Of a stretch of 31,939 bases of DNA, positions 2,456 to 31,445 are shown one piece after another; position 1 is the first letter of the stretch; each line of letters begins with the position of its first letter. Both the position numbers and the translations under genes were made by a program. The notes under the pieces are model-generated. The model saw nothing but the letters and a program-made list of their open reading frames with translations. It did not search any database and had not been told where the DNA came from. The DNA is from a virus. Location of the stretch: positions 1-31,939 of the IMG/VR virus record IMGVR_UViG_3300042874_000121. One strand, given 5' to 3'.

Positions 2456-2759
2456 CTTGTCTCTTTCGTTTAATTACTAGCAATTGAGCTTGTCACAACT
2501 CAACGTGCCAACAATTAGCACCAACTACAAACGGGCTGTTTACCGTTGATTGAATTGACGGGAGCAAGTCGGGTTCAATCGTGACAATAACTATTTCAAG
2601 TTATCACTAATGTAGTTGAGTAAATTGTTAAAGTACTTTGATGACTTAGTTGTGATCGATCCTTAGTTCGCTTATAGCTAGTAAAGATTGATCTGATTGT
2701 ATACTGTTTAGCGAGATTGTTTTTAGATTGTTGCTCGCTTGTTTTATTAGTATGTATTC
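2456..2759 (-). other. Long 5' leader without a gene
   Basis: About 300 nt between the predicted transcription start (near 2753) and the first gene. It contains small inverted repeats: AACGG/CCGTT around an 8-nt loop (about 2530-2547), ATAACT/AGTTAT around a 6-nt loop (about 2587-2604), and a near-palindrome TTGAGCTTGTCACAACTCAA (about 2485-2504). No convincing gene was found. It may hold an operator or a structured leader. Confidence 0.4.
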
Positions 2760-2788
2760 ATTGTATCATACTGTAATATACTTGTCAA
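2760..2788 (-). promoter_or_regulatory. Near-consensus sigma70 promoter for leftward miniprotein operon
   Basis: Read on the minus strand: TTGACA (2788-2783), a 17-nt spacer, then TACAAT (2765-2760). The -35 is perfect and the -10 matches five of six bases at optimal spacing. Transcription should start near 2753 and run left. Confidence 0.8.
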
Positions 2789-2793
2789 TACCA

Positions 2794-2954
2794 TATAAGA
2801 TAATAATATATATTAATTACATAAATTAATAATAGATGATCAAGGGATTACTTGACAAGCCGTGACGGTAATTTTTACAAAGTAATAGATGGGGTTAGGG
2901 GCAAGTGTTAGATGGGAGCTTTATATCTCTATAAGATAATAATAAGATAATAAT
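2794..2954 (+). repeat. Iteron-like direct repeats (ATAAGATAATAAT)
   Basis: Copies at 2795-2807, 2931-2943 and 2942-2954. The first two share 15 identical bases, and the last two overlap by two bases. Low complexity weakens their weight, but exact 15-mers 136 bp apart are unlikely by drift alone. Confidence 0.5.
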
Positions 2955-3093
2955 TATATAATAACTAATAGATAATCCCTTAATAGCTTATTAATGTATA
3001 GTTATATAACAATCCATTAGCCCATTATTGGATTATATAATAGACAATTATATAACAATCTATCATCGAGCTAGCAATTCGATAATAAGACTA

Positions 3094-3110
3094 TCATCAT
3101 ATTATGATGA
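3094..3110. repeat. Perfect palindrome TCATCATA-T-TATGATGA
   Basis: Eight-base arms around a single central base, typical of a dimeric repressor operator. It lies about 200 bp upstream of the terminase promoter. Confidence 0.5.
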
Positions 3111-3302
3111 CAATCTAATAAAACCATCTATTATTAGCTAATTAATAACTTATTAATCCATTATTTTATAGATTGTCTGTTATATTCTAATTGACCATGC
3201 CCCCCTACCCGTAGCATTCAACAGACGGGGTTTGTATATGATGGGGAAGAGGCCTAGATATAGATTACTAGACAAGACCAATAAACAATCTCTTTATCCA
3301 CA

Positions 3303-3340
3303 AGCTGTTGATTGCTCAATAGCTACGATAATTGTATAAT
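3303..3340 (+). promoter_or_regulatory. Terminase-operon promoter with overlapping palindrome
   Basis: A perfect TATAAT (3335-3340) lies 17 nt after TTGCTC (3312-3317). A 9-bp inverted repeat, AGCTGTTGA/TCAATAGCT around a 4-nt loop (3303-3324, one G-T pair), covers the -35 box and could be an operator. Transcription would start near 3347, only about 3 nt before the terminase start codon. Confidence 0.6.
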
Positions 3341-3349
3341 ATAAGTATT

Positions 3350-3946
3350 ATGAAACTATCCACTAATTTAGTTAAGCCAGAAGATCAAGGTCCTAATCCA
3401 AGCATATGTGTTATATGTCTTTATGGCTTACAGAACCAAGTTTTAGAGTTAGAGAAGAATGGCCACACAAGAAAGAGAATCATAAGCCTATTAAAAGCCT
3501 ATATGACTAGGAAACATCCAGAATTAAAGGAAGCAGTTAAGTTATATGCCTCACACATCTCATTTCACAGAAGACAATGCTTAAGAGAAGAAAAACAAAA
3601 CATAGCCATAGTAAGGAAAGCCAGAAGGAATTTAAAGATGCAAAAGAAAACCATAGCACAAGTTAATGAGATGGTAATGGATCACATAGTTAAAGGCTTA
3701 AGTATTGCAGACGGCATAACACAAGAGCAAATAGACAGTATGGCAGTTAGAGACCGAATGGCTATTGCCAGTGAAGCTGCTAAGTTACTTCAAGGAGAAA
3801 AGAAAATAGTTTTAGAAGCACAAAGGAATGGCATGGAAAAGGCTAAGTTCTTAATGGAGACAGGCAAATTAGCTTCTGGCTCCATGCTAATAGACCATAA
3901 TGAACAAGAACCAGAGTTATTATTAGCTCCAGCTGAAGAGGATTAA
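3350..3946 (+). CDS. Putative terminase small subunit / DNA-packaging protein
   Basis: A 198-residue, basic, helical protein directly upstream of and overlapping terL (TAATG at 3944-3948), the usual place for a small terminase, which recognises the packaging site and hands DNA to the large subunit. It has a C20-x2-C23 pair and H69-x3-H73 followed by C77, which could form a zinc site. A long helical middle and an acidic C-terminus (PELLLAPAEED), typical of the segment that contacts TerL, complete it. I place the start at ATG 3350. A TTG at 3332 lies in frame but falls upstream of the expected RNA start. No Shine-Dalgarno precedes ATG 3350, which with the promoter position suggests a leaderless mRNA. 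The call rests on position and general features, not on a named family. Confidence 0.6.
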   Translation: MKLSTNLVKPEDQGPNPSICVICLYGLQNQVLELEKNGHTRKRIISLLKAYMTRKHPELKEAVKLYASHISFHRRQCLREEKQNIAIVRKARRNLKMQKKTIAQVNEMVMDHIVKGLSIADGITQEQIDSMAVRDRMAIASEAAKLLQGEKKIVLEAQRNGMEKAKFLMETGKLASGSMLIDHNEQEPELLLAPAEED

Positions 3947-5457
3947 TGGCCTATAATGAAGAAAGTTTAAAGAAATACAAAGAATACTGGGTTCCAAGAT
4001 GCCGAGATGACTTTGAGTTGTTTTGTGACAAACTTTTAGGCATTAAATTAAGAAAAGGCCAAAAAAGACTTGAGAAAGAGCGTCATGATTCAGAACTTGA
4101 AACAGGCAAGTGGAAGACTGTTTACATGATCCTTGCAGGTAACAGGTTTGGGAAGTCGGTTTATGAGGGCTGTAAGCACATCTGGAAGAATTATTACAAG
4201 CTAACCAACCCAGAAGTGCCTATTTCTCCTGAGATGTGGCCTCATTTTAAATACCAGACCTTTAATTTGGCGCCAGCCAGTGAATTAACTAAGATAATAC
4301 TTCAAACAATTTTAAAGATTTTAAGAAGTGAACTTACTTTAAAGAAACCAGACGGTACTTTTTGTTTAAATGAATGTAAAATACGTGATTTTATAGACAC
4401 ACCAGGACTAAATAACTACGACACTAACCACATACCAGATCAAGGACCATTTAGAGTCAGATTTAGCAATGATTCATTATTTAGAGCCTTTACTTTAGGA
4501 GCAACTCACGGTGACGGCGTTCAAGGTGTAGGGTTTATGTATGGAAGCTATGATGAGTTTGGCAGAAGCAAGAATCCAGACAAGGAAATTGATGACCTGT
4601 TACCACGTTTGTTCGATTACAAGGGCGAACTTGACATCATCACCACTCCAGACATCGAAAATGAACTCTCTTGCGCCTATATATTGGACAAAACAGACCT
4701 AACCAGGATGGGAGAGCTTGACTGGTTCTTATTTGAAGGTGACATCAGAGAAAATGAGGACACCGACGAGGCAGATTTGATTAAAAGAACTCAAGGTATG
4801 AGCGACGCAAAGAGAAATCAGATCCTTTCAGGTAAAATATCTATGTCTGGAGCCTGTTATTTTGAGGCTGCTAATGTTATTAAGATGTTTAACGGTACCG
4901 CTACTTATTCTATGTATGGAATACCTGGAAGATTCTATTCTATCGGTCTAGACACGGCTGGTGGAGGTAAAGACTACTGGGCAATCAATGTTTTAGATAT
5001 AACTGACCCAGATCACTGGCATAGAGTCTTTTATTACTACGACAAATTAAACCAGCCTGGATTTAACATCGGTTTTACTAAAACAATTTTAGACAGATTC
5101 TTCATGGCAGGGGCAGAAAATGTCTCTTTTACCATGGATAAGACCAATGAGGCTGGATCTATTTATTACAATGAGTTTGCAAACTACAATGTTAGGGGTT
5201 TTAGGTTCGGTATGGAGAAGGGGACAGGAAAGTCAACTAAGGCAGACCTACTAGATGTTGCAAGACGGGCTATAAACGAAAAAGACCTGATTAAGTGTAC
5301 GGATGACCGTATGCTTAGAAATCAGATCATTTCGTATAAAGGACCTATGGATGACAAGAAACAAACTACAGATGCCCTGATGAGCTTTGCTCTTGCCGTT
5401 TACTATCCTTATAAGCAGAGACTTGACGGATCGAATGAGATTTGCATAGACCTTTAA
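3946..5457 (+). CDS. terL: Terminase large subunit
   Basis: A 503-residue packaging motor and headful/cos nuclease. The ATPase part shows a Walker A of the GNRxGKS type (LAGNRFGKS, residues 63-71) and a Walker B ending in D203-E204 (FMYGSYDEF). Coupling motif candidate TTP lies at 233-235. The nuclease part shows the RNase-H-fold acidic residues: D336 in YSIGLDTAGGG, D398 in VSFTMDK and D476 in TTDALMSF. All key residues are present and the length is normal. The gene starts by overlapping the small-terminase stop. Its last 92 bp overlap the convergent gene at 5366-5686. Confidence 0.95.
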   Translation: MAYNEESLKKYKEYWVPRCRDDFELFCDKLLGIKLRKGQKRLEKERHDSELETGKWKTVYMILAGNRFGKSVYEGCKHIWKNYYKLTNPEVPISPEMWPHFKYQTFNLAPASELTKIILQTILKILRSELTLKKPDGTFCLNECKIRDFIDTPGLNNYDTNHIPDQGPFRVRFSNDSLFRAFTLGATHGDGVQGVGFMYGSYDEFGRSKNPDKEIDDLLPRLFDYKGELDIITTPDIENELSCAYILDKTDLTRMGELDWFLFEGDIRENEDTDEADLIKRTQGMSDAKRNQILSGKISMSGACYFEAANVIKMFNGTATYSMYGIPGRFYSIGLDTAGGGKDYWAINVLDITDPDHWHRVFYYYDKLNQPGFNIGFTKTILDRFFMAGAENVSFTMDKTNEAGSIYYNEFANYNVRGFRFGMEKGTGKSTKADLLDVARRAINEKDLIKCTDDRMLRNQIISYKGPMDDKKQTTDALMSFALAVYYPYKQRLDGSNEICIDL

Positions 5458-5686
5458 AGTTTTTAGCGTTTTTACTCATTTCTTTATCTAATATTGTTAC
5501 CACCACACCATCTTCAATTACAGCAGTGTGAGTTTCCTTTTTAATCTTATATGTCTTGTGAATTCTCATTGCTCTGGTGTATTCTTCTTCTGAGAGTATT
5601 TTACTTCTGACCTCATCCATATTTATGCCGTAGACCCTCTCAATAAATCTTACAACAGCATGGTCAGAAATAGGAACTGGATACAT
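5366..5686 (-). CDS. Conserved phage protein, ISDHAVVRFIERVYG family-type
   Basis: A 106-residue protein whose N-terminus (ISDHAVVRFIERVYG, then MDEVR) matches a short family I have met often beside phage packaging and early genes, without a known function. The C-terminal half is basic and polar, and its last third is encoded antisense to the end of terL; no earlier stop exists. The start at 5686 lies 5 nt after the stop of the upstream gene, with GAG just before. The His-Ala-x2-Arg-x2-Glu pattern is reminiscent of small toxin/nuclease-like folds, but that is only a resemblance. Confidence 0.7.
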   Translation of the reverse strand: MYPVPISDHAVVRFIERVYGINMDEVRSKILSEEEYTRAMRIHKTYKIKKETHTAVIEDGVVVTILDKEMSKNAKNFKGLCKSHSIRQVSAYKDSKRQEQSSSGHL

Positions 5687-5690
5687 TACA

Positions 5691-5912
5691 TTACTCTTTT
5701 GGAACTAAGACTGACGCCAAGCGAGTGATCTTGCTTTCAGGAAAATAAAGCACAGCTTCGTTTCCACCGTCTTCTTCGCACCTAAACACAACATCTTTTT
5801 CGTAATTTTCTAAAATTCTGTTAAAACTCTCCTCTTTGACATAAAAGTTCATGCCGTCTGAACATACTACAAACTTACGCACTTTTTCGATCTCTTTTGT
5901 TTTTTTTGCCAT
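5691..5912 (-). CDS. Hypothetical small protein (73 aa)
   Basis: A 73-residue protein with a basic N-terminus (MAKKTKEIEKVRKF) and alternating strands and one helix (NFYVKEESFNRILENYEK). GGAGG-type ribosome site (CGGAGGAAA) directly before the ATG, one of the best in this operon. It ends in the gap before the 5366-5686 gene. Family not recognised. Confidence 0.7.
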   Translation of the reverse strand: MAKKTKEIEKVRKFVVCSDGMNFYVKEESFNRILENYEKDVVFRCEEDGGNEAVLYFPESKITRLASVLVPKE

Positions 5913-5930
5913 TTTCCTCCGTTTATTTTA

Positions 5931-6101
5931 TTAACTTATTAATGTTTGATTTAAATTTCGTCTTGATGTTCTCTTTCCTGTGTGAAGTTCTTTTGTTAAA
6001 TCTTTGTAGCAACCTTTGCATACCGAATATCCCAAGTAGTCTATAGCTTTTGTGTTGATGTAACCTTCACCTATTATAATTTTACAGTTAGCGCACTTCA
6101 T
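5931..6101 (-). CDS. Zinc-ribbon miniprotein (56 aa)
   Basis: The start is ATG 6101, overlapping the upstream stop as ATGA; an in-frame ATG at 6125 would lie inside the upstream gene. C3-x2-C6 and C28-x2-C31 with 21 residues between give a clear four-Cys zinc ribbon, followed by a basic tail (HTGKRTSRRN). It probably binds nucleic acid or a host protein. Small zinc ribbons of this kind are common in phage early regions. Confidence 0.7.
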   Translation of the reverse strand: MKCANCKIIIGEGYINTKAIDYLGYSVCKGCYKDLTKELHTGKRTSRRNLNQTLIS

Positions 6102-6490
6102 TTTGTTAAAACTATTAACAAACATCTACCGTCTTCGGATCTAAACGGACTTCCAGTAGAATTTTTTAGCTGAAGTCTATTCTTGGCTATCTGATTTCTG
6201 AATGAATCTATAAACCTTCTAAAGTATGGGCAACCCATGTCATTAAGTAGCTCCGTAAGACTAACCCTAAAATCTAAAATGTCTTCGAGCCATGCTTTGC
6301 TGGTTATTTCAAATTGCCTTTTTGCTTGGAATAGTCTGTTTGCACTTTTTCTGCCATCTCTTATCTTTATTCCATAAATGGTGTGATTTATAAAATCAAC
6401 TATTTCGTATTCGGTCGGATCGAATTTTACATCTGGCCATACTTGAGACAGAAAATATATTTCTTCTTTTTGTTTTATTGATAGTTTCAT
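6098..6490 (-). CDS. Hypothetical phage protein (130 aa)
   Basis: A 130-residue basic protein with an aromatic N-terminal part (EEIYFLSQVWPDVKFDPTEYEIVDF) and a helical Arg/Phe-rich C-terminal half (YFRRFIDSFRNQIAKNRLQ). AGGT lies before the ATG, and the stop is coupled to the zinc-ribbon gene. I do not recognise the family. The charge and helices would fit a nucleic-acid-associated role, which is inference. Confidence 0.65.
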   Translation of the reverse strand: MKLSIKQKEEIYFLSQVWPDVKFDPTEYEIVDFINHTIYGIKIRDGRKSANRLFQAKRQFEITSKAWLEDILDFRVSLTELLNDMGCPYFRRFIDSFRNQIAKNRLQLKNSTGSPFRSEDGRCLLIVLTK

Positions 6491-6491
6491 T

Positions 6492-6620
6492 TTATAAGTT
6501 ACCTATTATCTTTGCTAACTCATCACACTTTAAACTTGTTTCTGATATACCTCTGTTGTCTGGGTGATATGTTGGGTCAAAGTTTACTTTTAATAATTCA
6601 GCTATTTGTTTTTCATCCAT
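6492..6620 (-). CDS. Hypothetical miniprotein (42 aa)
   Basis: A 42-residue frame (MDEKQIAELLKVNFDPTYHP...ELAKIIGNL) whose ATG overlaps the upstream stop as TAATG and is preceded by AAGGA. It ends 2 nt before the next gene. The start context and packing make it a likely gene. The repeated helix-proline-helix layout says little about function. Confidence 0.6.
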   Translation of the reverse strand: MDEKQIAELLKVNFDPTYHPDNRGISETSLKCDELAKIIGNL

Positions 6621-7009
6621 TATGATTCCTTGGAGGTTAGTTGTTTTATTTTTTCAACCAATTTTGATGTTGGTACAAACTCTATTCTTAATGGTGAACC
6701 TTTATCATCAGTAGTACCAAAAGCATCTTTGTTTTCTTCTACCCACTCCATTAGTTCAGTGAGTTGGGCTTGGTGATAAGTTGACAATCTTTTGCTTGCT
6801 TCGTGGAGAGTTTCTAGCCATTTGTTTTCTTTTTCTCTCTCAATGAGTTCAACGATTTTGTCTATTGCCTCGTCTCCGCTTTTAATCAGTTCCTCAGTCG
6901 GCATTATAATATCAACGCCTCGCTCTTTTCTTGACATAAATAAATATGAGTCATGGCCCTGTAATTGGTAAACTATTCCTTTTAATTGTTCTCTTATTGT
7001 CTTATTCAT
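6620..7009 (-). CDS. Hypothetical helical phage protein (129 aa)
   Basis: A 129-residue acidic, mostly helical protein with GAGGAT before its ATG. Residues about 40-95 read as a long charged helix or coiled coil (VELIEREKENKWLETLHEASKRL). It is the first protein gene after the structured region at 7034-7498, so the structured RNA may form its 5' leader. Family not recognised. Confidence 0.65.
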   Translation of the reverse strand: MNKTIREQLKGIVYQLQGHDSYLFMSRKERGVDIIMPTEELIKSGDEAIDKIVELIEREKENKWLETLHEASKRLSTYHQAQLTELMEWVEENKDAFGTTDDKGSPLRIEFVPTSKLVEKIKQLTSKES

Positions 7010-7033
7010 ATATCCTCTTTACTTACTTTTGTT

Positions 7034-7498
7034 GAACTACTAAGTGTTATTTAGTAGTTGGATTAACCTCTATACCTTGGAGGATTGTGCTTTCCACAGC
7101 ATGTAATACAATCTATTCTCCAAGGTATAATTGTTAATGCTTTGTGCTTCCTTTTATTATTCTATCCAGCAGGCCGAGCTTAGCAGTTTGGTCTGACGAC
7201 CACTCGTTGCCCCTTGTCTCCATGTGGCACCTGCTGGATACTCTGTTTACAAGTGAGTCCTCTTCGAGACTCCAAGCTGGCTTTAGCCAACACCTTGTTG
7301 TTTTACCTTGGCCGACAGAGACGGTATGGGAACCTGCCATACTGCTGTAGCGAGGGAGTAAATTGTTAATATTTTGTAGACCGAACCGTATCACTGTCTA
7401 CTTGGTGGCCCCGATCTCTAACCGCTCCTTACCGTGCCACTACAACACGGGGGCAAGCCACTTTCCTTAGTTTTAGCGTTGTTAAACGCCCGTATTGT
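7034..7498 (-). ncRNA. Candidate large structured non-coding RNA
   Basis: A protein-free gap of about 490 nt, clearly richer in G+C than its surroundings (32 of 60 bases at 7201-7260). Perfect or near-perfect helices: 7035-7043/7051-7059 (9 bp); 7071-7082/7118-7129 (12 bp) enclosing 7083-7088/7108-7113; 7163-7173/7230-7240 (11 bp) directly abutting 7241-7246/7315-7320 (6 bp); 7322-7329/7337-7344 (8 bp with one G-T); 7376-7381/7396-7401; GTGG-CCCC (7405-7412) with GGGG (7449-7452) and CCAC (7458-7461); 7476-7480/7485-7489; and 7442-7451/7489-7498. This reads as a multi-branched RNA fold. The strand is set to minus because all flanking genes run that way; wobble pairs give mixed evidence. Phage large RNAs such as ROOL and GOLLD are possible relatives, but I cannot match it to either. 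Confidence 0.6.
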
Positions 7499-7501
7499 TT
7501 G

Positions 7502-7654
7502 TTACTTTTCTAGTATGTATTGAACACCTTGGACAATAGACACAGCACTAATTATTTTGAATCCATCTTCAAGTCTATCTAATAACTTGACTACATTACC
7601 TTCCGCATCTTCGCTCGATAGGTCACCGCCTATTTGAAAAAATTCATATTTCAT
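7502..7654 (-). CDS. Hypothetical small protein (50 aa)
   Basis: A 50-residue frame (MKYEFFQIGGDLSSEDAEGN...) with AAGG 8 nt before the ATG. It reads like a short strand-helix-strand fold and ends right where the structured region begins. Its bottom line IVQGVQYILEK is amphipathic. Function unknown. Confidence 0.6.
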   Translation of the reverse strand: MKYEFFQIGGDLSSEDAEGNVVKLLDRLEDGFKIISAVSIVQGVQYILEK

Positions 7655-7677
7655 TGCTTACCTTCTTATTATAGGAG

Positions 7678-8082
7678 TTAAACTGTATGAGTGCCTTCAA
7701 CACCTCTATTTTCTCTGCCGATGGTTCTCTTTCTTAGCCACATCAGAGCTTCTTCAAGTTTGGTGATGGCACAAGCGTTCTCTCGGCATTTAAACTCTGA
7801 ATTTTGGAAAGCCTCAAGCCTTGAAACAACCATGCAAATTAAGTCTTCATTTTGAACTCCATTGACACCAGACTCTTTGATTGCACCAGATTGAAAGTTA
7901 ATCTCCGATAGTAAAACTTCGTCTAATCCGATAACTTGCCTACCATCATTGATAACCTTGCACACATGAAACTTAGTTGGCACTCCTCGATCATCTCTCT
8001 TTAGTGAAACATGGGTGTATTTCTCTGTTAGTAAATCATTTTCTAAACTCTCCCATGGTTGTTCATTGTTTACTTCGTTCAT
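7678..8082 (-). CDS. Probable Acb2/Tad1-hairpin family protein (cyclic-nucleotide sponge, anti-CBASS/Thoeris)
   Basis: A 134-residue protein. The segment GVNGVQNEDLICMVVSRLEAFQ (residues 72-93, split by a turn) followed by CRENACAITKLEEALMWL (99-116) forms a two-helix hairpin, ending with RTIGRENRGVEGTH. This combination of LEEAxMWL helix and RGVEGTH tail matches phage proteins that I associate with the Acb2/Tad1 hairpin domain. Acb2 and Tad1 bind and sequester cyclic oligonucleotides or gcADPR signals of bacterial CBASS and Thoeris defence. The N-terminal about 70 residues form an extra beta-rich part. It is encoded in the early-type leftward region, as expected for an anti-defence gene. The family call is from memory of motifs, and ligand binding is inference. 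Confidence 0.6.
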   Translation of the reverse strand: MNEVNNEQPWESLENDLLTEKYTHVSLKRDDRGVPTKFHVCKVINDGRQVIGLDEVLLSEINFQSGAIKESGVNGVQNEDLICMVVSRLEAFQNSEFKCRENACAITKLEEALMWLRKRTIGRENRGVEGTHTV

Positions 8083-8097
8083 TGTCTTATCTCCTCT

Positions 8098-8445
8098 TTA
8101 AATTACTTTTCTAAGTCTTTTGTACTTTTCTTCTGTCGAATGTCCATCCCAGCAATAAAAATAATCATAGTTAAGGTGGTCAAACATCGGTATATCGTGA
8201 TCGTGAATGTGCCAAGTCATCTGGTAATCGCATATTGGTGAATCTTTTAAGCCTGCAAATTCTTTATTTTTGTCTGCTGGTAAGTAAATTACTACTATTG
8301 TTCGCCAGTCTTTGTCCCATTCTTTATCGCTCTCTGGATGTTTAGCCAAGTGAGAAGGAAATATCTTTGAAAGTGCAGCAACTAATTGATTTCTTTCCCA
8401 ATATGCTTGGTTCTTTTCTTTTTCTAATTGCTCTGTGTCTTTCAT
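8098..8445 (-). CDS. Conserved phage protein with WHIHD...WDGHSTEEKY motif
   Basis: A 115-residue protein: a charged N-terminal helix (EKEKNQAYWERNQLVAALSKIFPSHLA), a strand (TIVVIYLPA), then TWHIHDHDIPMFDHL and a C-terminal WDGHSTEEKYKRL. The same order of motifs is widespread in tailed-phage accessory genes; as far as I know no function is established. The His/Asp-rich centre could bind metal. It lies directly upstream of the sponge-like gene with a 15-nt gap and likely shares its transcript. Confidence 0.75.
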   Translation of the reverse strand: MKDTEQLEKEKNQAYWERNQLVAALSKIFPSHLAKHPESDKEWDKDWRTIVVIYLPADKNKEFAGLKDSPICDYQMTWHIHDHDIPMFDHLNYDYFYCWDGHSTEEKYKRLRKVI

Positions 8446-8469
8446 GTTAGTTCTCTCTTTTTAGCTAAT

Positions 8470-8823
8470 GACCTGTGGAGGTAGGTCGTTTTTAATTAGT
8501 CTTTATATTGGTTGTATGGTTCTAATCCAGCATTATTGACGGGAAGTTCTTTGTAATATTCTGTTCCTGTTGCTTCTGCGTAGTTTTTAAAATTTCTTGA
8601 AATATCATCTCTGAAATAGTCGTGACCATAGAATGCGTCATTTACTAAATCTTTCGTTGCTTTTCTCTGTTGTGGGTCAGATATTGCAGAATCTATCACT
8701 GTCAGCACTCTGCCTAAAAAACTTTTCTTGCTCTCAGATACAATCTCATGTACCTTGTCGCTCAATAAACATAACTTTGCTTGTTTCATAACTTTTACCT
8801 TTCTTGACTTAACTCCACAGGTC
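8470..8823. repeat. 11-bp inverted repeat flanking gene 8496-8789
   Basis: GACCTGTGGAG at 8470-8480 and its exact reverse complement CTCCACAGGTC at 8813-8823 bracket a single gene. The left copy also forms a small hairpin with AGGTC at 8483-8487, followed by GTTTTT on the plus strand. This could mark a mobile cassette or base pairing between leader and trailer of the mRNA. Confidence 0.5.
8496..8789 (-). CDS. Hypothetical phage protein (97 aa)
   Basis: A 97-residue protein with a helical N-terminal two thirds (CLLSDKVHEIVSESKKSFLG, then QRKATKDLVNDAF) and a polar C-terminus rich in Asn and Tyr. AAAGG lies about 9 nt before the ATG. It is the first gene after the promoter at 8938-8966 and is bracketed by an 11-bp inverted repeat. 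Helical phage proteins of this length that follow a strong promoter are often host-takeover factors, but nothing here shows that. Confidence 0.65.
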   Translation of the reverse strand: MKQAKLCLLSDKVHEIVSESKKSFLGRVLTVIDSAISDPQQRKATKDLVNDAFYGHDYFRDDISRNFKNYAEATGTEYYKELPVNNAGLEPYNQYKD

Positions 8824-8937
8824 TTAACTAAACTTTTAATTGCTCAATTATTTCCATTAAATATTCTGTTTGTTTAACTAAAATCCCGCCTACGAGAAGG
8901 GGGGTTCGCAAACGGGATATAACCACTCTCTGTATAT
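8824..8937 (-). ncRNA. Leader with strong hairpin just after the start site (attenuator or small RNA)
   Basis: On the minus strand the predicted transcript begins near 8931. Within 13 nt it enters a hairpin, ATCCCG (8918-8913) paired with CGGGAT (8888-8883), with an extra CCT/AGG pairing inside, followed by TTTT. The layout is that of an early intrinsic terminator, so the promoter may yield a roughly 50-nt small RNA with read-through to the genes. The remaining leader down to 8824 has no gene. Confidence 0.45.
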
Positions 8938-8966
8938 ATTATATGCTTGGTAACTTGCTTTGTAAA
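8938..8966 (-). promoter_or_regulatory. Leftward promoter (TTTACA-N17-TATAAT)
   Basis: On the minus strand TTTACA (8966-8961), a 17-nt spacer and a perfect TATAAT (8943-8938). It should serve the genes from 8789 leftward, including the sponge-like gene. Confidence 0.75.
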
Positions 8967-8972
8967 TAATTT

Positions 8973-8981
8973 TTATCCACA
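8973..8981 (+). other. DnaA-box match (TTATCCACA)
   Basis: An exact 9-base match just upstream (on the minus strand) of the 8966 promoter -35 box. A single copy may be chance, but another perfect copy lies at 3294-3302 and a one-mismatch copy at 10353-10361, both in control regions. Confidence 0.35.
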
Positions 8982-8983
8982 GT

Positions 8984-9238
8984 TTAAAATGGGATATCGC
9001 TAAGCAATTTATCAGTATCAGCATCTCCTAGTGTTTCATTGTTGGGTTTAATTTCTGGTTTAACATATCTATTTTCTTCTGTTAGTAGAATATCAATGTC
9101 TGGTTGGTTTGGATTCTTCTTGTCTCTGTTAATAAAAGCTACTACTTTCTCAGCTTCTCCGTTAATAATAACTTCTCCAGAATAAAATACTCCATGACTT
9201 CCCATTTTAGTCCATAATGCTCCGATTTTTTTTCTCAT
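8984..9238 (-). CDS. Small protein with SSB-like C-terminal tip (possible ssDNA-binding protein)
   Basis: The start at 9238 has GGAG 6 nt upstream, and the longer in-frame ATG at 9250 overlaps the upstream gene. The 84-residue product opens MRKKIGALWTKMGSHGVFYS and continues with beta-strands (GEVIINGEAEKVVAFINRD), a small barrel-like pattern seen in short phage/plasmid proteins of the DUF736 type. It then has a Pro/Asn-rich linker and ends DTDKLLSDIPF. A C-terminal acidic stretch finishing DIPF is the signature by which bacterial SSB recruits repair and replication proteins. It may therefore be a compact single-strand binding protein or an SSB mimic; both are inference. Confidence 0.55.
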   Translation of the reverse strand: MRKKIGALWTKMGSHGVFYSGEVIINGEAEKVVAFINRDKKNPNQPDIDILLTEENRYVKPEIKPNNETLGDADTDKLLSDIPF

Positions 9239-9239
9239 T

Positions 9240-9470
9240 TCATTCTCCATAATTATATTTTTTGTATTCGCTTTCGTTAATAACCATAACGTCTATGGTA
9301 TTATTTAAGTTATCTGTTGATACTTCAAATTCTACACTTTTATTAAATTTTGTAACTTTCATGATGTCTTTTCCGTCTGGACACATATTTTTATCTGTGC
9401 AGAATTGGTAATTACTGCTAAATCCTTTAGACTTTGCGTCTTTTTCTGTTAAAAAACTATATTTTCTCAC
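9240..9470 (-). CDS. Hypothetical small protein (76 aa)
   Basis: The start is GTG at 9470, with the strong site GGAGG 6 nt upstream. The 76-residue product begins MRKYSFLTEKDAKSKGF and has two Cys (C24, C30) and a beta-rich C-terminal half (SVEFEVST, IDVMVINES). The stop overlaps the possible longer start of the SSB-tip gene, so the two are co-translated. Family not recognised. Confidence 0.65.
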   Translation of the reverse strand: MRKYSFLTEKDAKSKGFSSNYQFCTDKNMCPDGKDIMKVTKFNKSVEFEVSTDNLNNTIDVMVINESEYKKYNYGE

Positions 9471-9561
9471 TTAAACCTCCTTTAAACATTTTAAGAATTG
9501 GATTGCTTTCTTAACTTTATTTTTTTCTAAAGTAATCATATTGTTGCATTATTTAATAATT

Positions 9562-9590
9562 ATTAAACAATTATTTAGTTATTGTGTAAA
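9562..9590 (-). promoter_or_regulatory. Leftward promoter (TTTACA-N17-TTTAAT)
   Basis: On the minus strand TTTACA (9590-9585), a 17-nt spacer and TTTAAT (9567-9562, five of six). It lies between the HNH gene and the gene starting at 9470 and would drive that pair. The -35 hexamer and spacer equal those of the promoter at 8938-8966. Confidence 0.6.
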
Positions 9591-9626
9591 GAAACCTCCA
9601 TTCAAACGGATAGATCAAGCATAGAT

Positions 9627-9652
9627 CCCCCCTAGGTCCCCCCAAAAAAAAA
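9627..9652 (-). other. Double G6 tract followed by T9 next to HNH stop
   Basis: On the plus strand C6 (9627-9632), TAGGT, C6 (9638-9643) and A9 (9644-9652). On the HNH mRNA this reads T9 then two G6 runs separated by ACCTA. It could hold a two-strand G-quadruplex or be prone to slippage. Its role is unknown. Confidence 0.35.
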
Positions 9653-9952
9653 TTATAATTCAATAATTTTAAGGGTTATCAACCTATGACAGTTCGGGCA
9701 AAGAGATACTACATTTTCCCTAGTGTATCCTTGTTTTGGATTTATTCTGTGTCTGTCACATGGACCCATATCCCATCCGCATTTTGAACATTTATAGTTG
9801 TCTATCAACTGTTTACCAGTATAATAGGCGTCTCTTTTGCGGTGGTGTAACTCGCAGAATCTTCCGTATACTGTTTTGCCTTTGTAATAACCTTTGTTTC
9901 TACCAAATTTATTACATCCGCTAAACTCGCATTTCCTTCTTTGCTCTACCAT
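9653..9952 (-). CDS. HNH endonuclease (99 aa)
   Basis: A 99-residue HNH nuclease. An N-terminal zinc knuckle (C8, C13, C33, with H36-H37) precedes the catalytic HNH fold: C55-x2-C58, H68 (CDRHRI), N80 (ENVVSLC), C85-x2-C88 and H89. All core residues are present, so it should cut DNA. Stand-alone HNH enzymes in phages act as homing endonucleases or in DNA packaging; here it sits far from terL and directly follows a structured RNA region. GAGAAG precedes the ATG. Confidence 0.85.
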   Translation of the reverse strand: MVEQRRKCEFSGCNKFGRNKGYYKGKTVYGRFCELHHRKRDAYYTGKQLIDNYKCSKCGWDMGPCDRHRINPKQGYTRENVVSLCPNCHRLITLKIIEL

Positions 9953-9959
9953 TGCTTCT

Positions 9960-10305
9960 CTTTCGCTTTCGCTAACCTTACCGTTATTTCAGGCAGGATT
10001 ACCAGTTATCTGTAAGCACGTATTGGCTGGTTTTAAACTCTCATTCAACTCGGTGAGTCAAGATGAGTCCCGCTCTCTTATTTATACTCGTTTATGCTGG
10101 ATACCCAACGAGTTTCTATTGCTAGAAGTTGAATTAAGACTATCTGCAGATATGCCCTTTCGGGGAGACGTAGCCGTCGCTTTTTCAACTCTCTCTTAAC
10201 TCAACTTTCAACAATAGAACGAAAAAGCTCCTCACTGTGACACCAGCGGGAGCGCTTTCGAATATCTATATCCTCATATTCATTTAATATAATGGTGTCA
10301 CATTA
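9960..10305 (-). ncRNA. Candidate structured RNA upstream of the HNH gene
   Basis: A gene-free 350-nt stretch that on the minus strand starts just after a strong promoter. Helices: TGTGACACCA (10236-10245) with TGGTGTCACA (10293-10302); 10224-10231 with 10249-10258 (8 bp with a 2-nt bulge); AGTTGAA/TTCAACT (10127-10133, 10184-10190), enclosing the palindrome TATCTGCAGATA (10141-10152), a CCC-GAAA-GGG hairpin (minus strand, 10155-10164) and a GACG/CGTC hairpin (10167-10178); ACTCGTT/AACGAGT (10086-10092, 10107-10113); and ACCAG/CTGGT (10001-10005, 10027-10031). The GNRA-type GAAA tetraloop exists only on the minus strand, supporting transcription toward the HNH gene. No coding frame fits. Confidence 0.55.
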
Positions 10306-10313
10306 CAGTTATA

Positions 10314-10342
10314 ATTATCTACAAAACATAATCAGTTGTCAA
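10314..10342 (-). promoter_or_regulatory. Leftward promoter (TTGACA-N17-GATAAT)
   Basis: On the minus strand a perfect TTGACA (10342-10337), a 17-nt spacer and GATAAT (10319-10314). The transcript should start near 10307, at the first helix of the structured RNA, and then read the HNH gene. Confidence 0.75.
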
Positions 10343-10352
10343 ATACTTTATT

Positions 10353-10361
10353 TGTGGATAT
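10353..10361 (-). other. DnaA-box-like site (one mismatch)
   Basis: Minus strand ATATCCACA, differing from TTATCCACA at one position, lies in the divergent control region between the leftward RNA promoter and the portal gene. Confidence 0.25.
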
Positions 10362-10394
10362 CTATAAATATTGCAAGATGTAGACGATTATTGC

Positions 10395-10423
10395 TTTACT
10401 GGAATCACAAATATCTAAATAAT
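10395..10423 (+). promoter_or_regulatory. Portal-operon promoter (TTTACT-N17-AATAAT)
   Basis: TTTACT (10395-10400), a 17-nt spacer and AATAAT (10418-10423). Transcription would start near 10430, about 4 nt before ATG 10434, giving a nearly leaderless mRNA like that of the terminase operon. Confidence 0.5.
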
Positions 10424-10433
10424 GGACTTATCT

Positions 10434-12131
10434 ATGAGTATAATTGAAGAAACTAAAAAAGAGTCAATAAAGCTAGCCATTAATACTAAACTTTCGTTAT
10501 ATTCTCAAGAGAAGTTATCCAGAACTTATGCTTACGCTAAAAGAATAGATTTTTATTCTGGAGCAATTAAGCCAGTAATCTCCAACGGACATGAATTAAT
10601 CTCTTCAAGGATGTGTTCAACCATAGCTGATAAGATGTCAGCCTACGCTGGAACAAATTGTTTTGGAGTTTCAATTACTAGCAAAAATATCAATGATGAA
10701 TCTGAGAATACTCTGGCCCAAAGCGCTGAAGACACAATCAACGAGATCTTTGACGGATCAAATAAAGAAGAATGGTATTTAAATGCTAATGAGTGCGCTT
10801 CTAGATTGGGTGATGGCCCAGTTACTATGGAAGACAGAAACGGTGTGCCATATTTTGAAGCAGTAGAAAAACCTGAAAATATTACTTTTGGTTGGAAGAC
10901 AGATAACTACCATGAACTTGAATGGTGGTCATACGAATACGGCATCACTCCAGAAGCTGCTAAGGACAGATTTAAGACGACTTTATCAGTAAGTGGTGAT
11001 CTTGATCCATTAGAGCAGAATTTATCAAATGGTGTTAGTTTAAAGGGCTTGTTTGACCTAGCCGTTGACGTATTAACCCAAAGAAAAGACAACGCCCCTA
11101 AATTTGTTAAAGTAACACTTTTTAACACCTTTATCGACATTAGAGATGAAGCAGGCAATGTTATCATCCCAGCCGAGTCTTTGGTTGTTTTGGGCAATGG
11201 CATACCATTTGAAATCTATGATAAGAAAGCCAAGAAGCTCTATCACTTTAAGGGTAACTCTTTCCCAGGATTATCAACTGGTGTTTGCGACTTTGAAACA
11301 GTGGCTGCTTTAGTCGCAGACTTTGACAAAAATATCTCCCAACAGGCTGACGCAGTGGCGCAATCTGTAAATCACACATACGTTACAACCGACTCTAATA
11401 TTGAGAAGTTAAAACAAAGACTTAATCCTAACAAGACCCAGATCATCAAGAAGGCTGATCCTCAAACAACCTTTGAAGTGTTGAACAAAAGAGTCAACGC
11501 TTACGACGCAGAGCCACTTTCCAAAAATATTTTAAATATCATCAGAACCAACTCGGGCCTTCAGGAACTAGGCCAAGATCAAATAGGTTCAAACATCTCT
11601 GGCAAGGCATTATCCCAGGCCTATCAGGGCGTTTTGCACATTGTTAACAAGAAGAGAATCAGATGGACATCTCTTATCAAAGACATGGTCAAAGATGCTC
11701 TTTGGGTCTTTACTGACGGTAATGCTGAGATGAGAAAAGCCTACTTCGATTCAGAAGGAGCATTTAAGTTTAATGTCAATGTGACTTGGAATGATGTCAT
11801 GGAAAATGATAAAGCTACCAAGATCGCCAATATCCTAAACCTCAAGAACGCTAAAGTTATTTCTGGCTACACCGCTATGGGACAGGCTGATATTGCCGAT
11901 CCTACCATGGAGCAAAAGAGAATAGACCTTGAAACACAAAAAGAGTTAGAATTTCAACAACAGCTTCAGGGTGAATTAAATCAACCATCAACGCCAACTG
12001 GTCCTATTATGAACGAATCAATGAATCAGCCAGGAGAAGGTATTGCTTCAGGTCAAGGAAACGCAGGTTCAGCTCAAACTGCTGGTATGTCAGGACAAGG
12101 CGCAGCTAATCAAATGATTAATAATCAATAA
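10434..12131 (+). CDS. Portal protein
   Basis: A 565-residue protein (569 if translation begins at ATG 10422) heading the virion operon. The dodecameric portal is the DNA entry and exit channel of the head. Support: size, position just before scaffold and capsid genes, an N-terminal part with conserved-looking helices (RMCSTIADKMSAYAG), a long helical centre (ETVAALVADFDKNISQQADAVAQSVN, split here by its turn) and SGKALSQAYQGVLHIVNKKRI, typical of Gly-Ala-Leu portal cores. The last 60 residues are Gln/Gly/Asn-rich low complexity. I choose ATG 10434 because ATG 10422 lies inside the -10 box. No Shine-Dalgarno precedes either. Confidence 0.8.
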   Translation: MSIIEETKKESIKLAINTKLSLYSQEKLSRTYAYAKRIDFYSGAIKPVISNGHELISSRMCSTIADKMSAYAGTNCFGVSITSKNINDESENTLAQSAEDTINEIFDGSNKEEWYLNANECASRLGDGPVTMEDRNGVPYFEAVEKPENITFGWKTDNYHELEWWSYEYGITPEAAKDRFKTTLSVSGDLDPLEQNLSNGVSLKGLFDLAVDVLTQRKDNAPKFVKVTLFNTFIDIRDEAGNVIIPAESLVVLGNGIPFEIYDKKAKKLYHFKGNSFPGLSTGVCDFETVAALVADFDKNISQQADAVAQSVNHTYVTTDSNIEKLKQRLNPNKTQIIKKADPQTTFEVLNKRVNAYDAEPLSKNILNIIRTNSGLQELGQDQIGSNISGKALSQAYQGVLHIVNKKRIRWTSLIKDMVKDALWVFTDGNAEMRKAYFDSEGAFKFNVNVTWNDVMENDKATKIANILNLKNAKVISGYTAMGQADIADPTMEQKRIDLETQKELEFQQQLQGELNQPSTPTGPIMNESMNQPGEGIASGQGNAGSAQTAGMSGQGAANQMINNQ

Positions 12132-30615: not shown

Positions 30616-31287
30616 ATGGACGAAACAAATGTCACACAAAAAATAACCGAGCGAACCAGGCCGACTGACGGTATGGAGTTTCGTACTCAAACATTAGAAA
30701 AACATAACCAAATACGAAAAATATCTTCCCTGGACGGATTAACCTATTTCGATACTGAGACAGGAGAAATTTTTATGAAAGACGGTTCTATCACAATGGG
30801 TAATATAACTATTAAAGATGGCGCTATTGTGATGTCAGACGGCAGCAACAAACGAGTAGTTTTAGATGGCAATTCAATGAAGGTGTCTCAAGCTGGTTAC
30901 GACGCAGACACGACTACAGACGACAAACTCATTATGAGTTCTGATTTTAATATGTACAAAATAGTTAAAATAATGACTGGAACAATCACAACTGGAGGTG
31001 TGGGCGTTGAATATTCATCTACTGTTTCACACGATTTAGGTTATAAACCAATGGTGTTCGGTTCTGTCATAAGCTCAGAGGACAGCAAATTAAGACCTTT
31101 GCCAGCCGCTTTTTTTAATACTGATACATTCAGGGTAGTCGGTGCTTTTGCACAAATACAAGACGTGACTGACACTCAGGCAACAGTTAAATTAGAGATT
31201 TGCAGTTTCCTTGGTCTTTCTTCTTTCGGCGCCAACGGAAAAACACTAAACTACAAATTGTATTTTGTCAGAGAGACAGCTAATTAA
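30616..31287 (+). CDS. Terminal tail-tip/baseplate protein (223 aa)
   Basis: AAAGGAG lies 5 nt before the ATG. The N-terminal 45 residues are helical; residues 50-105 form repeated short strands (DGSITMGNITIKDGAIVMSDGSNKR..., split at its turns), a beta-helix-like stem common in fibres. The C-terminal part is a globular beta domain (GYKPMVFGSVISSEDS...). It is the last rightward gene; its stop overlaps the convergent dockerin-like gene by 4 nt. It probably caps or decorates the tail tip. Confidence 0.6.
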   Translation: MDETNVTQKITERTRPTDGMEFRTQTLEKHNQIRKISSLDGLTYFDTETGEIFMKDGSITMGNITIKDGAIVMSDGSNKRVVLDGNSMKVSQAGYDADTTTDDKLIMSSDFNMYKIVKIMTGTITTGGVGVEYSSTVSHDLGYKPMVFGSVISSEDSKLRPLPAAFFNTDTFRVVGAFAQIQDVTDTQATVKLEICSFLGLSSFGANGKTLNYKLYFVRETAN

Positions 31288-31445
31288 AACTTGAAATTTT
31301 GAGATATTTTCGATAAGTCTTTGATGTCAACACGACCATCTAAGTTAATATCACCCCTACCCATTTCTAAAATACACAGAAACAGGACTAAAATAACCAT
31401 AGAAACCATAACAACCACAGCTGTTTTACCTTTAAAAAACTTCAT
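31284..31445 (-). CDS. Membrane-anchored dockerin-like miniprotein (53 aa)
   Basis: GGGAG precedes ATG 31445. The 53-residue product has a basic N-terminus (MKFFKGK), one membrane segment (residues 8-26), a short MGRG link and then a single calcium loop D32-I-N34-L-D36-G-R-V-D40-I-K-D43 followed by LSKISQNF. That is the F-hand/EF-hand repeat of type I dockerins, which in cellulosomes bind cohesins; dockerins normally carry two repeats, here only one. The loop would face outside the cytoplasm. It ends by overlapping the last tail gene. Confidence 0.65.
   Translation of the reverse strand: MKFFKGKTAVVVMVSMVILVLFLCILEMGRGDINLDGRVDIKDLSKISQNFKF

Follow-up and report, generated by a model that had tools for sequence, protein, structure and literature searches.

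A candidate structured RNA without detected relatives between two genes of a leftward phage operon

We report a 492-nt non-coding gap in a phage genome that is, on the folding models presented here, a plausible and credible candidate for an orphan structured RNA; a large ornate RNA was not supported. The gap (7010–7501) separates the minus-strand genes 7502–7654 and 6620–7009 of the window, by which we mean the whole stretch of DNA analyzed, a single viral record of IMG/VR, 31,939 bases long and classified as linear. That a functional, unclassified structured noncoding RNA is encoded on the minus strand over most of this gap we regard as an even call. We infer the strand, extent, processing, switching and function of the candidate. 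The features are compiled in Table 1.

Table 1. Positions of the candidate RNA, its modules and neighboring features in the window
Feature	Positions	Strand	Remarks
Intercistronic non-coding segment, candidate structured RNA	7010–7501	presumably minus (5′ end at the high coordinate)	no coding signal; fold z –4.84; no Rfam match
Hairpin P8: perfect 9-bp stem (7035–7043/7051–7059), 7-nt loop	7035–7059	minus	about 25 nt ahead of the start codon of 6620–7009
Module P7: long hairpin, 12 bp (7071–7082/7118–7129), 6 bp (7062–7067/7133–7138) and inner stem	7062–7138	minus	z –7.07 on minus, –5.64 on plus; inverted repeat I1
Module P6: 11-bp helix (7163–7173/7230–7240) closing a branched loop	7163–7240	minus	z –4.58 on minus, –2.80 on plus
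Helix P5: 6 bp (7241–7246/7315–7320), directly adjacent to P6	7241–7320	minus	pair probability 0.90
Repeat copy ACAAAGCATTAACAATT	7129–7145	minus	
Repeat copy ACAAAATATTAACAATT	7361–7377	minus	15/17 identical to the copy at 7129–7145
Second possible partner for the 5′ arm of P7 (7112–7126), 14/15 complementary	7526–7540	minus	in the 3′-terminal part of the upstream ORF; 1–2/400 shuffles
Upstream 50-aa ORF	7502–7654	minus	coding signal, codon score +0.19
Downstream 129-aa gene	6620–7009	minus	N-terminal part common to L130 and L131
Tad1-family anti-defence nucleotide sponge gene	7678–8082	minus	PDB 8kbb, E 9.8e-31; Pfam Acb2_Tad1_hairpin; leftward block

Gene setting and coding potential

The gap is housed in a leftward gene block (approximately 5366–9952), which is flanked by the rightward, terminase-sized gene 3946–5457 and the portal gene 10422–12131. 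Judging from its position and a reading of its sequence, gene 3946–5457 probably encodes the terminase; its protein matched no PHROG or Pfam family and had no tblastn match among 50,697 phage records. The capsid protein found matches only at about 26% identity, and the phage itself is isolated. The conserved gene close to the candidate RNA is the Tad1-family gene, which is filed under phrog_2428 (function unknown) and has 34 IMG/VR relatives. A strong promoter-like site in leftward orientation was located upstream of the segment at 8966–8938; the gap itself showed no terminator and no clear promoter of its own. The downstream gene is preceded by AAGAGG ahead of its start. It contains a short domain around DIIMPTEEL that also occurs in small genes of the phages L130 (6001–6144) and L131 (622–711), which are otherwise unrelated to the window phage. 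Elsewhere in the window, a 53-aa ORF on the minus strand (31284–31445) showed, by eye, a hydrophobic stretch at the N terminus as well as a dockerin-like repeat, GDINLDGRVDIKDL; Pfam gave no match.

An earlier note, made from the letters of the window, had described a protein-free gap between two genes of the same operon and a sharp rise in G+C. Both observations were borne out. The two neighbors lie on the minus strand, and the codon-usage scores of the gap were below zero in all six frames (–0.02 to –0.26 per codon), compared with at least +0.03 for every annotated gene (median 0.16). Fragments of the frames yielded no meaningful Pfam or PHROG match, and the open frame 7134–7394, applied as a six-peptide probe to viral and genome collections, retrieved neither an RNA relative nor a protein remnant. 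We thus rejected a protein-coding gene in the gap, as no open frame carried a coding signal or homology. The G+C content reached 51.8% in the core (7160–7460) versus 39.1% in the contig, placing the core in the top 0.2% of 300-nt windows.

Folding of the gap

Folding energies were evaluated as z-scores against dinucleotide shuffles. For the whole gap, the fold energy was –150.4 kcal/mol on minus and –145.5 kcal/mol on plus, with z-scores of –4.84 and –3.89, respectively. For module P6 on the minus strand, 0 of 200 shuffles folded as well and the pair probability of the helix was 0.98; no second copy of the module was present elsewhere in the contig. Helix P5 could stack on P6, and the two adjacent helices that the earlier note had listed, of 11 and 6 bp, were found exactly as given. 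Positions 7241–7501, on the other hand, folded no better than shuffles (z –0.55 on minus, –0.07 on plus), and 120-nt windows gave the same picture, with the structure excess limited to the left part. The statistically structured part is 7062–7240 only, plus the 9-bp hairpin at 7035–7059.

This result divides the earlier description of nine helices in a highly base-paired region. Three perfect Watson-Crick helices of at least 9 bp (9, 12 and 11 bp) stand against 0.09 expected, whereas perfect helices of at least 6 bp were not significantly enriched (10 observed, 7.1 expected). Since the excess is confined to 7062–7138 and 7163–7240, and the count of the shorter helices is near chance, the list comprises three genuine helices alongside several that are unremarkable. 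Two of the listed helices were uncertain in the minus-strand ensemble, namely 7442–7451/7489–7498 (mean pair probability 0.18–0.35) and 7324–7329/7337–7342 (0.23–0.39).

To calibrate these values, the same statistic was computed for known RNAs. It amounted to –2.77 for E. coli RNase P and to –2.90, –2.41 and –1.30 for three T4 group I introns. A true ROOL RNA, that of Ligilactobacillus salivarius pMP118 (130 bits), gave a z-score of 0.02, and its antisense strand folded better than the sense strand. Folding energy thus neither excludes a large RNA here nor decides the strand, and the shuffle-like behavior of 7241–7501 is no disproof of structure there. The minus strand is weakly favored, because both neighbors run leftward, the promoter-like site points the same way and both solid modules fold better on minus. 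The strand had been left open earlier on the grounds that wobble pairs favor minus at 7442–7451/7489–7498 and plus at 7322–7329/7337–7344; both assignments were reproduced and the caution was justified, with the direction of the operon now leaning towards minus. A-rich unpaired positions were dropped as a proof of strand because the whole segment was not beyond shuffles in this respect.

Two further non-coding blocks of the contig were noted. Directly upstream of the HNH-like gene 9653–9952, the minus-strand block 9953–10421 folded with a z-score of –3.93, and its sub-block 9953–10260 with –4.13 versus –1.70 for the antisense. This block had no Rfam match and no blastn match in phages, showed no similarity to the gap, and could represent an RNA associated with the HNH gene. 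The other block, 2456–3331, comprises about 870 nt without genes between divergent gene blocks; it is AT-rich with many repeats (fold z –6.55) and resembles an origin or a control region.

A possible long-range alternative pairing

Not described in the earlier note is a second option for the 5′ arm of P7 (7112–7126): besides its complement in the hairpin, it can pair with 7526–7540 within the upstream ORF, and the two partners are mutually exclusive. Of 400 shuffles, 1–2 contained a pair comparable to 7112–7126/7526–7540; among real contig windows the count was 2 of 209, and one of these two is possibly this very place. When the long-range helix was forced, the energy was nearly equal to that of the free fold (–157.9 and –160.2 kcal/mol, respectively), and the forced fold gained further pairs on both sides and enclosed about 430 nt. 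Within the free ensemble, the helix had a probability of 0.01. One of the two partners would be hidden under a ribosome that completes the 50-aa ORF, which may suggest a coupling between translation of the ORF and the fold.

Two known arrangements resemble this architecture in part. RNase III processing stems sit between genes of T7-like early messages; like these, P7 is long and imperfectly paired and lies between genes that share a transcript, near the next start codon. Unlike in T7, the gap is several times longer and contains a second, branched module, and processing here is conjectural. In leader-peptide attenuators, the end of a short ORF competes with a hairpin, just as the end of the 50-aa ORF rivals the hairpin for one arm of P7. 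The segment differs from these in lacking a terminator hairpin followed by a T run and in the roughly 400 nt that lie between the alternative partners.

Known RNA families and homologues

When the 4227 families of Rfam 15 were searched, the whole window had no match above the gathering thresholds; relaxing the limit to E 10 brought up nothing but chance scores in the segment. The earlier note had been right to leave the class open. Its suggestion of a large phage RNA of the GOLLD or ROOL sort was supported by no test, as there was no Rfam match, no tRNA gene in the window and no homologue from which covariation could be read. RNA-only multimeric cages are a further mark of ROOL and GOLLD; for this segment such an assembly would be conjectural. 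The ROOL model (RF03087), which finds the pMP118 ROOL at 130 bits, did not match at its gathering threshold, nor with the limit raised to E 10. The GOLLD model (RF02032) had no match either, a less secure result because the control in Mycobacterium phage ET08 also gave nothing. OLE, HEARO, group I and group II introns, RNase P and the other Rfam classes did not match the segment; the group I model does detect the T4 introns. An archaeal RNase P at 7442–7498 was rejected (9.4 bits versus a cut-off of 84), as was a match to MIR390, which was merely a long hairpin.

Large structured RNAs of phages are few and their functions are unsolved (PMC12286853). ROOL and GOLLD are reported to lie often in tRNA islands (PMC12286853), a neighborhood that is absent here, the 31.9-kb window being free of tRNA and tmRNA genes. 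Like ROOL, the segment is phage-borne, non-coding, about 500 nt long and higher in G+C than its surroundings (the true ROOL has a G+C of 0.40 versus 0.30–0.34 in its flanks). It is unlike ROOL in having no model match or nearby tRNA genes, in lying inside a protein operon and in being only partly of solid structure. With GOLLD it shares the character of a large phage-borne noncoding RNA of unknown function (PMC12286853); it differs by the missing model match and tRNA island and by its length, which falls short of the often >800 nt of GOLLD.

No RNA homologues of the segment were detected in IMG/VR, GTDB genomes, INPHARED or PLSDB, where records very near the window are possibly absent. With 11-base words, blastn found no RNA relative in INPHARED and only short chance pieces in PLSDB. 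Likewise, no RNA relative was retrieved with the terminase as bait in IMG/VR, GTDB genomes and INPHARED or with the capsid in IMG/VR. The 34 loci found with Tad1 had neighborhoods without the RNA and shared nothing else except one weak protein match (L033), and neither L130 nor L131, found with the downstream gene, contained it. Pattern scans for the duplicated 17-mer and two presumed single-stranded stretches produced no match with further similarity; the matches read in detail were coding DNA or AT-rich spacer. The spacer belongs to another phage (L062), in which the 19-base pattern ACAAARYATTAACAATTWW occurs twice (6601–6619 and 6783–6801), 182 bases apart, together with repeated GCATTTTTC boxes ahead of a primase-like gene.

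Interpretation and alternatives

The reading as a structured RNA draws on several lines of evidence: the segment has no coding signal or protein match, its core is G+C-rich as in the true ROOL, and the whole segment (z –4.84 on minus) as well as the two modules (z –7.07 and –4.58) fold beyond shuffles. The three helices of at least 9 bp, the long-range complement, the leftward neighbors and the promoter-like site point in the same direction. Against a structured RNA over most of the gap speak the missing homologue, the shuffle-like region 7241–7501, the low probability of the long-range helix and the absence of an own terminator or promoter. A narrower explanation, which we consider possible though doubtful, is that only the left part acts, in cis on the polycistronic message. 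The stem 7062–7138 and one or two further hairpins before 6620–7009 would serve RNase processing or mRNA stability, much as the RNase III stems of T7 early messages do, and the rest would be spacer. All statistically supported structure indeed lies in 7035–7240 and adjoins the downstream gene. Such an element does not account for the roughly 260 nt of DNA at 7241–7501, which are G+C-rich and non-coding, and the energy test that would confine structure to the left part is underpowered for large RNAs.

The sharp shift in G+C would also fit higher-G+C DNA that was recently gained, or a degenerated gene; the structure would then be partly due to chance. The lack of relatives and partial repeats joining 7305–7322 with 7526–7543 agree with this origin, but no protein remnant was seen in any frame and two modules exceed shuffles by far; we hold a foreign or decayed insert to be unlikely. 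The repeats raise the question of a DNA element, with sites for protein binding or replication formed by repeats and inverted repeats. The 17-nt repeat ACAAARYATTAACAATT lies on the minus strand at 7361–7377 and 7129–7145. Its core, TTAACAATT, occurs at just three sites of the contig (2623–2631, 7129–7137 and 7361–7369), all on minus and all non-coding, and the copy at 2623 falls within the AT-rich block 2456–3331; TTAACAATT may be a binding site or promoter element common to the three. The longest exact word common to the segment and the rest of the contig, at 14 nt, is ordinary (reached in 14 of 100 shuffles), and the architecture, with internal loops in a 77-nt stem and 56 nt between 11-bp arms, resembles an RNA rather than an operator. 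A DNA element in place of an RNA thus appears very improbable.

If the segment does act as a structured RNA, it would be made within the leftward operon in the order 8445–8098, Tad1 (8082–7678), ORF (7654–7502), RNA, 7009–6620. Its 3′ part would contain two robust modules, the branched domain 7163–7240 closed by 11 bp and the long hairpin 7062–7138. The 5′ arm of the hairpin could alternatively bind 7526–7540 in the terminal part of the upstream ORF, giving one closed domain of about 430 nt. With a ribosome on 7526–7540, the local hairpin would form, probably as the place where the downstream message is processed or its stability controlled; with the ribosome off, the closed domain could form. 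That this amounts to a new class of large phage RNA (approximately 430–490 nt), with a closing helix reaching into the upstream ORF and translation switching between closed domain and local hairpin in a Tad1 operon, we deem quite unlikely.

Conclusions

At present, the segment is a single-sequence candidate whose chief use is as bait for homologue searches. If true, another large phage RNA, located between anti-defence and other leftward genes, would widen the small known set and might tie such RNAs to the control of phage operons.
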